53,264 nucleotides of DNA from Bacillota bacterium (GTDB lineage Bacteria > Bacillota > DTU030 > DUMP01): NCBI GenBank assembly GCA_012837285.1, contig DURJ01000025.1:1-53264 (forward strand), written 5' to 3'. Positions 27,374 to 32,243 of the stretch are shown piece by piece. Below the pieces are notes generated by a model. It was not told where the DNA came from and searched no databases. It worked only from the letters and a program-made list of their open reading frames with translations. The first letter of the stretch is position 1, and the number at the start of each line of letters is the position of its first letter. Both the position numbers and the translations under genes were made by a program.

Positions 27374-29746
27374 TTACGCATTAGATACTTCTTGGCGCAT
27401 ATTTCTCAGCATTATCTTTCGCTCCACTGAAGCCACTATGCGCTTGGTATATACCACTGTATCAGGATTTACACTCATGCTGTCGACGCCTTGCTGCACC
27501 AGAAACGAGGCAAACTCCGGATACTGAGAAGGCCCCTGTCCACAGATGGAAACGGTCTTATCATACTTGTGCGCCGCCTGGATCAAAATTACAATAGCCC
27601 TCTTCACCGCTCGGTTTCGTTCATCAAAGTACCCCATGCGGTTAAGAATCCCTGAATCCCGATCGGCTCCCATGATGAGCTGGGTTAGATCATTGCTGCC
27701 GATACTGAAGCCATCCACCTCTTGGGCAAACTCTTCAGCCTCAAAAATAACCGATGGCACTTCAGCCATAATCCAGAGCTTGAAGTTATTTCCCTGCACC
27801 AAGCCTTCGCTGACCATGATCTTTTTGACTCGCTTCAGTTCCCAGATAGTGCGGACAAAAGGTAACATCACCCAAACATTGGTCAAGCCAAACTCTTCCC
27901 TCACCTTACGGATAGCCTGACATTCCAGCCGAAAACCTTGTTCATACTCAGGTGAAATATAGCGCGCCACACCACGCCAGCCAATCATCGGATTGTTTTC
28001 TATCGGTTCCACCTCTTCGCCGCCCTTTAACCCGCGGAACTCATTAGTACGAAAATCGCTCAGCCTTACCACCACCGGGCGAGGATTAATCACCTGTGCC
28101 ACGGTGCTGATTCCTGCCGCCATTTTCTCCACCAAAACATTCCCTTGACCGGTCTTCACCAAATACATGGGATGCGCCCCAACCAGATCCGAAAAGATAA
28201 ACTCTGTCCGCATCAGTCCGATGCCGTCAAACGGCAATGCCCGATACTTGTCTATCAGCGAAGGCTGACCCAGGTTCATGTAGATCTTGGTAGCAGTGAC
28301 CGGAGTTAGCTGGGTGATAAGCTCTTCGTTGATAACAGCGCTCATTAGGCCCGCTTGATTCCTGGGGCCCGGTTGCTTCTCCTGGATAACTTCCCCGGCA
28401 TAGACAACACCACAGGTGGCATCAACTGTCACCTTACTGCCTTCGGCCAATACCGCTGTTGCCACCTTGGCGCCCACTATGCAAGGGATACCCAGCTCTC
28501 GGGACACAATAGCGGCATGACAAGTGCGCCCGCCTTCGTCCGTCACCACAGCACTGGCCTTGCGCATGGCCGGGACCATGTCGGGATTAGTCATCACCGT
28601 AACCAAGACGTCGCCGGCTTCAATGCGGGCAATTTCAGTTACGTCTTTTATCTTCTTCACCGTTCCGCTACCTAGGCCGGGAGAAGCAGACAATCCCCGC
28701 ACCAATACCTTAGTCTTACCGGCAGCTTCCTTATCCATCGGTTTTCCCTCTCCTTTGAAGGTAGTTACCGGACGGGCCTGCAGAATATACAGTCTGCCTG
28801 TGTCCTGATCATAGCCCCATTCAATGTCTTGATAGCAGCCGTAAAGGTCCTCAATCTTACGCCCGTATTGTACCAACTGCATAATCTCCGCTGCAGTCAG
28901 ACACTGAGCCCGGATCATATCCGGTCCCAACTGATCAGCTACCGGCACGTTTCTAGTGCCCGACCCGTCTGGGCAATCTACAATCATGACGGTTTTCTCA
29001 GCTATGTTCTGATCAACAATGGACAGGGTATTCTTATCTACCAGGTATTCATCCGGCGTCACTAGGCCGGAAACCACGGCTTCGCCTAAACCCCAGCTGG
29101 CATTGATCATCATCTGCTCCGGATCGTTGGTTACCGGATTGGCTGTGAACATCACCCCCGACTTGCCGCTGTTTATCATCTTTTGGACCACAACACTAAG
29201 GGCCACTTCCAAATGGTCAAACCCTTGCTTTTCCCGGTAGTATACTGCCCTGGCGGTCCACAGAGAGGCCCAGCACTGTCGTACATATTCCACCACCGGC
29301 GCCGGACCGCGAACCTGCAAGAATGTGTCCTGTTGCCCGGCAAAAGATGCCTCCGGCAGATCTTCAGCCGTGGCCGAACTGCGCACTGCCACCGCCGGAT
29401 CGGTTGTGTTTATCTGCTGGCCGAGCTGCTCATAGGCGGTGCGAACTTCCAATGAAATCTCCTCCGGTACAGCCGAGTTGACAACAAGCTCTCGTATCCG
29501 TGCGCTCTCGGTCTGCAGCCGGGAAGAATCCTCCACCTCCAGCCCGTGAATAATCGCAGCTATTTTCCTTTCCAGCCCGGCAGCCCGAAGAAAATACCTA
29601 TAGGCATCAGCCGTTAGGCAAAAGCCCGGTGGCACTTCTATCTTATTTTGGGTCAGCTCGCCCAAATTAGCCCCCTTCCCCCCCACTAGCGCCACGTCAT
29701 CTTTAGTAACTTCGTCCAGCCATTTCACGAACCGATACTGGTGCAA
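27374..29746 (-). CDS. ppsA: Phosphoenolpyruvate synthase
   Basis: Converts pyruvate and ATP to phosphoenolpyruvate, AMP and phosphate for gluconeogenesis. About 790 residues: an N-terminal ATP-binding domain (VALVGGKGANLGELT, AVRSSATAEDLPEASFAGQQDTFL in pieces), the swivelling phosphohistidine domain with the catalytic histidine in DEGGRTCHAAIVSREL, and the C-terminal PEP/pyruvate barrel (GLMRTEFIF, IGSNDLTQLIMGADRDS, SICGQGPSQYPEF). The best start is the TTG at 29746, seven bases after GGAGG; ATGs at 29770 and 29788 lie upstream of that site, the latter on the promoter. It is monocistronic, between its own promoter and terminator, inside the uvr gene group. Confidence 0.95.
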   Translation of the reverse strand: MHQYRFVKWLDEVTKDDVALVGGKGANLGELTQNKIEVPPGFCLTADAYRYFLRAAGLERKIAAIIHGLEVEDSSRLQTESARIRELVVNSAVPEEISLEVRTAYEQLGQQINTTDPAVAVRSSATAEDLPEASFAGQQDTFLQVRGPAPVVEYVRQCWASLWTARAVYYREKQGFDHLEVALSVVVQKMINSGKSGVMFTANPVTNDPEQMMINASWGLGEAVVSGLVTPDEYLVDKNTLSIVDQNIAEKTVMIVDCPDGSGTRNVPVADQLGPDMIRAQCLTAAEIMQLVQYGRKIEDLYGCYQDIEWGYDQDTGRLYILQARPVTTFKGEGKPMDKEAAGKTKVLVRGLSASPGLGSGTVKKIKDVTEIARIEAGDVLVTVMTNPDMVPAMRKASAVVTDEGGRTCHAAIVSRELGIPCIVGAKVATAVLAEGSKVTVDATCGVVYAGEVIQEKQPGPRNQAGLMSAVINEELITQLTPVTATKIYMNLGQPSLIDKYRALPFDGIGLMRTEFIFSDLVGAHPMYLVKTGQGNVLVEKMAAGISTVAQVINPRPVVVRLSDFRTNEFRGLKGGEEVEPIENNPMIGWRGVARYISPEYEQGFRLECQAIRKVREEFGLTNVWVMLPFVRTIWELKRVKKIMVSEGLVQGNNFKLWIMAEVPSVIFEAEEFAQEVDGFSIGSNDLTQLIMGADRDSGILNRMGYFDERNRAVKRAIVILIQAAHKYDKTVSICGQGPSQYPEFASFLVQQGVDSMSVNPDTVVYTKRIVASVERKIMLRNMRQEVSNA

Positions 29747-29776
29747 GACAAGTCCTCCTTTTTGTCTCATGGTTAC

Positions 29777-29804
29777 ATTATAGCACATTTAACGCAATGT
29801 GCTA
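29777..29804 (-). promoter_or_regulatory. Promoter -10 of ppsA overlapped by a palindrome
   Basis: TATAAT (29777-29782, minus strand) lies 30 bases before the TTG start. The inverted repeat TAGCACAT-N8-ATGTGCTA (29781-29804) overlaps the -10 edge and the -35 spacer, a typical repressor position. No clear -35 hexamer is visible, which suits an activated or regulated promoter. Confidence 0.55.
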
Positions 29805-29867
29805 TCCCATGTTCTCCACACTAAGATTATATGCCTACAACTTTCTGTTACTTGCTCATATTGACAT

Positions 29868-29922
29868 AAAAAAGCCTCGCCCTCCCCACCACCTACCATC
29901 AGGTCAGAGGGGACGGCGAGGC
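29868..29922 (-). terminator. Rho-independent terminator after the glutaredoxin gene
   Basis: A stem gcctcgcc/ggcgaggc (29874-29881 and 29915-29922), with further pairing ctcccc/gggga inside. Read leftwards it is followed by six T. Confidence 0.85.
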
Positions 29923-29936
29923 CGCCAAATTACTTG

Positions 29937-30179
29937 TTATAAGCCTAACAGCTCACTGATCCGAGTGCGGTCGAAACCGACTACCACCTGATTGCCAATC
30001 TTAAGTGCCGGTACGGCCGAGCGACCGGTCAATCCGAGCATTTCCTGCCTCGCTTCTCGATCAGCCGCCACATCCTTTTCTGTGAAGGTGACGTTATGCT
30101 GGGAAAGAAACTCCTTCACCAAAGTGCAATAGGGTCACGTCGGCGTAGAATACACGATCACCGGAACCTGTGTTGACAT
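29937..30179 (-). CDS. Glutaredoxin-like protein with in-frame TGA at the catalytic cysteine (probable selenoprotein)
   Basis: An 80-residue glutaredoxin/NrdH-type thiol oxidoreductase, read from the ATG at 30179 (preceded by AGGAGG) through an in-frame TGA at 30135-30137. The N-terminal reading is MSTQVPVIVYSTPT, then TGA at residue 15, then PYC. The TGA is thus exactly the first cysteine of the CPYC redox motif, giving U-P-Y-C. Downstream follow KEFLSQHNVTFTEKDVAAD, the cis-proline region SAVPALKIGNQVVVGFD and RISELLGL, all typical of the family and in frame. Selenocysteine at this place is known in bacterial glutaredoxins. Only weak hairpin potential (GGA/TCC with loop gtttctt, about 24 bases past the TGA) is visible as SECIS. 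An alternative is an inactivating mutation. Confidence 0.8.
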
Positions 30180-30254
30180 ACTTTTTCCTCCTCTTAGCCT
30201 TTACTCATATTCTATCCACATTTTCCTTGCCTGTACAGGGTTTTTCTGCCAAAC

Positions 30255-32243
30255 CTATTTCCCCAGCAACATCTTGGCCTCTAACAACAAATCCCGCCAC
30301 TGGGCTGCCTCCTCGAAGGCCAAGCGTTTGGCAGCTGCGTGCATCTTTTGTTCCAGCTCACTCACCCACTGCCGTAATTCGGCCGCTGACATGGCTTTAA
30401 CGCTCTTTTCCCGGGGCAGATATTCTTCCACCTTCTCGGCTACTTTAGTCGCTTCGATTACATCACGAACGGCTTTCTGTACTGTTTGCGGTGTGATCCC
30501 ATGATCCTGGTTATACTGGGCTTGGATCTGTCGCCGCCGATTGGTCTCCTCCAGGGCTTGGCGCATAGAATCGGTCACCGTGTCAGCATACATAATTACT
30601 CGGCCGTCTACGTTCCGCGCTGCTCGACCGATGGTCTGAATTAGGGACCGGTGCGACCGCAAAAAACCTTCCTTGTCGGCATCCAAGATCGCCACCAAAG
30701 ATACTTCCGGTAAATCTAGGCCTTCACGCAGAAGGTTAATGCCAACTAATACATCAAATTCGCCCAGACGTAGGTCGCGAATTATCTCCATTCGTTCCAA
30801 GGTACCGATGTCCGAGTGTAAGTAACGCACGCGCACACCGGCATCGAGGAGGTAATCGGTTAAGTCCTCGGCCATGCGTTTAGTTAAAGTGGTTACCAAC
30901 ACCCGTTGACTTTGTTCGACTCTAAGGCCGATTTCGTGCAGCAAATCATCTATTTGACCCTGAGTAGGCCGAACCTCAACCTCCGGATCCAGCAACCCAG
31001 TAGGCCTTACCACCTGTTCCACTACCTGCTCACTAACCTCAAGTTCAAACGGTCCCGGGGTAGCCGAGGTAAAGATTACCTCTTTGACCCGGTGGATAAA
31101 CTCATCAAACACCAACGGCCGGTTGTCGTAGGCGGAAGGCAAGCGAAAACCGTACTCCACCAAACTGTCCTTGCGCGAACGATCGCCGGCATACATAGCA
31201 TGCAGTTGCGGAATAGTCATATGCGACTCGTCAATGATAACTAAGTAGTCTTGGGGGAAAAAGTCCAGCAACGTATACGGCGGCTCTCCCGGAGCTCGAC
31301 CGGTCAGATGGCGGGAGTAGTTTTCTATCCCCTGGCAGTAGCCCAGCTCGGCCAGCATCTCCAGATCATAGCGGGTTCGCTGCTCCAAGCGATGGGCCTC
31401 AAACTGTTTGTCTTGAGATCTAAGTTCGGCTAACCGCTGCTTTAGTTCAGCTTCTATGGAGGCCATGGCCCGCACTCGAGTCTGGATCGAGGTAACATAG
31501 TGGCTGGCCGGATAAATGGCCACATGCCGCCGTTGTCCCAGCACCTCACCGGTTAAGGTGTCGAATTCCAGCAGCGAATCGATCTCATCGCCAAAAAATT
31601 CCACCCTAATTGCCCGAGCGCTGGCAGCAGCCGGAAATATTTCCACCACATCACCGCGTACCCGAAACTTTCCTCGGCTCAGCTCTAAGTCATTACGACT
31701 GTATTGCATCTGCACCAGTTTCTTCAATACTTCATCACGATCCCGCTCATCTCCGGGCCATAAAGACAACACCTGTTCCCGGTACTCTTCCGGTGAGCCT
31801 AAGCCGTAAATGCACGAGACGCTGGCCACCACAATCACATCTCGCCGCTCCAGTAAAGCACTGGTGGCAGCATGGCGCAGTTTATCTATTTCATCGTTGA
31901 TGGACGCATCTTTTTCAATGTAAGTATCAGTGGTGGCAATATAAGCTTCCGGTTGATAGTAGTCATAGTAGCTGACAAAATATTCCACAGCGTTGTCCGG
32001 AAAAAACTCGCGGAATTCACTGCACAACTGAGCCGCCAGAGTCTTGTTATGGGCGATTACCAAGGTAGGTCGCTGCACAGCTTCAATCACCCCGGCCATG
32101 GTAAAAGTTTTACCGGATCCGGTAACCCCAAGTAAAGTTTGGTGTTTATAACCCGCCCGTATCCCTTGGGCCAAGCCCTCAATAGCTTTAGCTTGGTCGC
32201 CCCTGGGAACAAGGTCGGTTTGTAAGCGCAGTCTCTGCTCCAT
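30255..32243 (-). CDS. uvrB: Excinuclease ABC subunit B
   Basis: The DNA-loading helicase-like subunit of nucleotide excision repair, 662 residues. Walker A is [10 protein letters not shown] (residues about 39-48). The beta-hairpin region has [11 protein letters not shown]; motif II is [10 protein letters not shown]; further motifs are [54 protein letters not shown] (in pieces) and QTIGRAARN. The C-terminal UVR domain ([30 protein letters not shown] in pieces) contacts UvrC. The ATG at 32243 has AGGGGAAG upstream. uvrB stands apart from uvrA-uvrC, with the glutaredoxin and ppsA genes between. Confidence 0.97.

Follow-up and report, generated by a model that had tools for sequence, protein, structure and literature searches.

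Selenocysteine (Sec)-containing glutaredoxins (Grx) are an established kind of bacterial selenoprotein. A 2006 survey described them in Geobacter sulfurreducens, Alkaliphilus metalliredigenes, and Moorella thermoacetica; its table counted three Cys-to-Sec events for Grx and none from Sec to Cys, and remnants of the SECIS element were described there in FdhA and in HesB-like proteins (PMC1794560). A 2026 review lists Grx among the experimentally verified selenoproteins, with Kim et al. 2011 on Clostridium oremlandii Grx1 as cited therein (PMC13188914). The selenoprotein Grx1 of Clostridium (Alkaliphilus) oremlandii has been made and studied, including U13C/C16S constructs (PMC4479559). For the hairpin that directs Sec insertion, the bSECIS model describes a loop of 3 to 9 nt with a G at one of the first two loop positions, a stem of 4 to 16 bp, a distance of 16 to 37 nt from the UGA, and a folding energy of -7.5 kcal/mol or lower (PMC13188914).

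Here, we analyzed a stretch of 53,264 nucleotides from a Bacillota bacterium (contig DURJ01000025.1, hereafter the window) and found a glutaredoxin gene at 29937..30179 that, judging from its sequence and that of its relatives, almost certainly encodes a functional selenoprotein. The gene is a new example of a kind of selenoprotein already known. Like C. oremlandii Grx1, its product is a small Grx of the same type with Sec as the first residue of UxxC (U13 in Grx1). Among solved structures, PDB 7c10 comes closest, with E 7e-22 over 75 residues and an identity that we estimate by eye at about 60%; its C13 aligns with residue 15 of the window's protein. The C13 and C16 of PDB 7c10 agree in number with the U13C/C16S constructs of Clostridium Grx1, whose numbering also fits PDB 7c12, and from this we infer that PDB 7c10 is Clostridium Grx1. 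Grx1 and the window's protein differ in their partners: Clostridium Grx1 reduces a selenoprotein MsrA, whereas no MsrA match was found in the window's genome, so the partner here must be a different one. The M. thermoacetica Grx (L121/L018) is 53 to 54% identical, with a TGA at the same codon and near-identical SECIS nucleotides, GTGAAAGAGTATCTTTC, but its active site is UPSC rather than UPYC and its hairpin loop is GUA rather than GUU.

Gene structure and genomic neighborhood

The features of the locus are collected in Table 1. Read on the minus strand with TGA as U, the frame is MSTQVPVIVYSTPT-U-PYCTLVKEFLSQHNVTFTEKDVAADREARQEMLGLTGRSAVPALKIGNQVVVGFDRTRISELLGL*, in which U15 is the sole recoded codon, and residues 7 to 66 match the full Pfam Glutaredoxin model PF00462 (E 1.1e-18). 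An earlier note on this DNA had given the coordinates of the gene exactly but left its strand unstated; it is the minus strand that carries the gene, and the plus strand at this place reads as noise. What the note said of the gene's architecture stood up well. Its AGGAGG is found immediately ahead of the ATG, the full-model match with a single recoded codon bears out its complete glutaredoxin, and its expectation that a gene finder would lose the first 19 residues is what a plain open reading frame (ORF) caller produced, namely, 61 amino acids from TTG 30122. The good terminator that it saw corresponds to a hairpin at 29923-29873, directly past the TAA and followed by a T run (-38.9 kcal/mol for the fold of 29940-29870). 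The automatic terminator scan did not pick up this hairpin (29867..29923), an omission that its long, interrupted arms probably account for. Among the NCBI families, the nearest by score were UXX-star (NF041212, 61.8 bits against a cut-off of 66) and YruB (TIGR02196, 82.0 against 88.55); since both scores fall just under the cut-off, the glutaredoxin is formally a member of neither.

Table 1. Features of the glutaredoxin locus, in window coordinates
Feature	Position	Strand	Remarks
Glutaredoxin gene	29937..30179	-	ATG 30179-30177, TAA 29939-29937; 80 aa with U15
TGA codon, selenocysteine 15	30135..30137	-	First residue of the UPYC active site
Ribosome binding site GAGGAGG	30186..30192	-	Sequence 5' of the ATG
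Bacterial SECIS hairpin UGG-u-GAAGGA-[GUU]-UCUUUC-CCA	30100..30121	-	Loop 30111-30109, 23 nt after the UGA
Intrinsic terminator	29867..29923	-	Long GC-rich hairpin, then T run
uvrB	30255..32243	-	Immediately upstream, 75-nt gap; Pfam UvrB domains
PEP synthase-like/PPDK-family gene	27374..29788	-	Downstream, past the terminator; Pfam PPDK_N and PEP-utilizers

The 61-residue ORF also raises the question of whether translation might restart at the internal TTG or at a GTG, with or without Sec read-through, to give a product devoid of the active site. The mechanical ORF does begin at such a codon, but no ribosome site is evident for this start, the VIVYSTPT codons ahead of the TGA are as conserved at the protein level as the remainder of the gene, and the product would be missing the first strand together with both catalytic residues. 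We therefore regard an internal restart as very improbable.

The upstream gene uvrB is possibly cotranscribed with the glutaredoxin gene, and the two adjoin each other in all six family relatives tested, in Sec and Cys forms alike. A PEP synthase-like/PPDK-family gene is likewise found 3' of the glutaredoxin gene in three relatives (L009, L010, and L011). The surrounding region of the window, 12122-32243, is a minus-strand stretch rich in DNA repair genes, with uvrB and uvrA recognized by Pfam and uvrC-like and ligA-like ORFs by eye.

Conservation of the TGA codon

A homologue search covered 150 related genomes, and 72 of them had a match. The aligned homologues have either TGA or a Cys codon at exactly the active-site position, with TGA in 31 and TGY in 74 distinct genes. 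Five of the seven family members at E < 1e-30 have TGA at the same codon (the window's own gene, L010, L011, L012, and L013). By genome, orthologues with a single TGA, again at this codon, are present in four members of the family (G001, G003, G004, and G006), and Cys forms are present in G002 (TGT) and G005 (TGC). Across the phylum, 30 genomes carried the TGA form at E < 1e-9. It recurs in many Bacillota, and a scan of named genomes added Moorella, Pelotomaculum, Desulfofundulus, and some Chloroflexota.

This distribution bears on whether the TGA instead marks a Cys-glutaredoxin gene in decay, disabled by a nonsense mutation. Orthologues encoding Cys do occur close by, L009 (TGT) within the genus and L014 (TGC) within the family. 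However, the same TGA is common to relatives down to approximately 50% protein identity, and the scattered stops that would mark gene decay were looked for in close relatives and were absent. In addition, the remainder of the gene and its ribosome site are intact, and synonymous sites within the hairpin described below are frozen. Conservation across genera and families already refutes a pseudogene, and we assign this reading next to no probability. A sequencing or assembly error for TGT or TGC, conceivable in a draft assembly fragmented into 204 contigs, is just as implausible and is ruled out by the many independent genomes, including the single-contig G003, that share the TGA, along with the presence of a SECIS.

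A genome-wide reassignment of TGA was also considered and rejected, as other genes in the window appear to use TGA as a normal stop, e.g., a ligase-like ORF after its codon 675. A search of the window for further genes with an in-frame TGA was judged by eye; all that it gave were frames that seem to run through ordinary stops, and short frames due to chance.

A canonical SECIS hairpin downstream of the UGA

The RNA after the UGA folds into a hairpin with a GUU loop on a 6-bp stem, a bulged U, and 3 further base pairs, at -12.4 kcal/mol for the 52 nt from the UGA and -9.1 kcal/mol for the 51 nt after it. Its loop, stem, G position, distance, and energy all agree with the bSECIS model. The earlier note had placed the SECIS correctly but had misjudged its pairing and strength: the GTTTCTT loop closed by GGA/TCC that it described is displaced by the longer stem, and its suspicion of a weak and possibly unusual recoding signal gives way to a canonical hairpin within all published limits.

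The hairpin distinguishes Sec from Cys genes. An automatic test of the SECIS criteria was passed by 29 of the 31 distinct Sec genes, one of which (L019) passes via a different hairpin, versus 4 of the 74 Cys genes; the exact SECIS motif occurs in 30/33 TGA genes versus 3/74 TGY genes. In L019, L022, and L095, the motif is present but the RNA folds otherwise. Within the hairpin, the wobble positions of the distinct Sec genes are frozen, with Val21 as GTG in 30/30, Glu23 as GAG in 31/31, and Leu25 as CTT in 31/31, whereas conserved residues outside it vary freely in their codons. As CTT makes up 7% of Leu codons in five genes of the window, this pattern indicates selection on the RNA. Covariation was almost nil and uninformative because the hairpin hardly varies. 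Scanned against Rfam, neither the window nor the gene gave a relevant RNA family.

Two further Sec-Grx genes, L083 and L147, have GAGTTCCTTTC in place of GAGTTTCTTTC. This change removes the closing A-U pair and makes the loop AGUUC, whose second nucleotide is G, still in keeping with the SECIS model.

Selenocysteine machinery

A search of the window's own genome for the sel genes, which the earlier note had suggested, recovered selA, selB, and selD, but tRNA-Sec (selC) was not found in the fragmented assembly. The selB match is full length (360 bits), and selA (356 bits) is cut by the end of the same 3.2-kb contig. The selD gene (L070, G000:C195; 389 bits) also encodes a selenoprotein, its TGA standing at the usual Sec site (ASG-U-GAK). 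selC was likewise not found in G001 of the same genus. Elsewhere in the family, G002 to G007 all have it. Its absence from our assembly is likely to be an assembly gap, because contig C132 of the window's genome continues for just 93 nt beyond selB, the selC of G004 starts approximately 117 nt past the end of the selB match, and in G002 the two tRNA-Sec genes (C62:38-132 and C79:4-98), nearly identical to each other, both lie where a contig ends. Duplication of the selC region may interrupt assemblies in this genus and thus account for its absence in both the window's genome (G000) and G001.

Across genomes, selB was above cut-off in 30 of 30 with a strong TGA form versus 11 of 22 with Cys forms only (Fisher p = 1.2e-5, a rough value as the genomes are related). 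Taken together, the relatives, selA, selB, and selD, and the SECIS support what the earlier note had proposed, a probable selenoprotein with TGA at the first Cys of CPYC.

Probable Sec-to-Cys reversion

Some Cys-encoding relatives retain the hairpin sequence. L014 (G005, TGC) keeps GTGAAAGAGTTTCTTTC unchanged and is nested in a supported Sec clade (96/89, 100/97). The sequence is also kept in the Cys-encoding L025 (G011) and L090 (Syntrophomonadaceae) and, in part, in L029 (G008), while the SECIS sequence of L009 (TGT) is lost. Because uvrB adjoins the glutaredoxin gene at all six family loci, L009 and L014 are positional orthologues.

The Cys relatives with an intact SECIS point to a Sec-to-Cys reversion, and Cys genes that keep the hairpin are likely fossils of a recent change of this kind. 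The lineage was probably ancestrally Sec in the family and has probably undergone at least two in-place changes back to Cys, once with the SECIS intact (L014) and once with it decayed (L009), with further fossil SECIS elements in L025, L090, and partly L029. The glutaredoxin tree covers 76 columns with many forks open, so that the number of events is uncertain. The direction for Grx would be opposite to that scored in the 2006 survey, a modest extension of a known phenomenon.

Proposed mechanism

In the route that we propose, the ribosome would start at ATG 30179, and SelB bound to the hairpin would deliver Sec-tRNA(Sec) at the UGA, the Sec-tRNA(Sec) being formed by SelA with selenophosphate from SelD. 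After Sec insertion, translation would presumably run on to the TAA. The predicted product is a selenol/thiol (UPYC) redoxin, in which Sec15 would attack a disulfide or an oxidized cysteine of a target protein, and Cys18 would then resolve the mixed selenenylsulfide.

By inspection, the protein has AVP and VGFDR where E. coli Grx3 has TVP and GGCDD in its glutathione-binding regions. A Glu-Cys ligase of the PF04262 type was not found in the window's own genome or in eight related genomes, and classical glutathione dependence is doubtful for this reason. Inspection suggests re-reduction via a thioredoxin reductase-type or other low-molecular-weight-thiol route rather than via classical glutathione.

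Significance

The rules of selenocysteine decoding are unchanged by this gene. Its identification corrects the gene itself and its Bacillota orthologues, which automatic annotation likely truncates or drops. Moreover, the Sec orthologues, the Cys orthologues with an intact SECIS, and the Cys orthologues with a decayed SECIS, all at one uvrB-linked locus, form a natural series for the study of selenoprotein loss.
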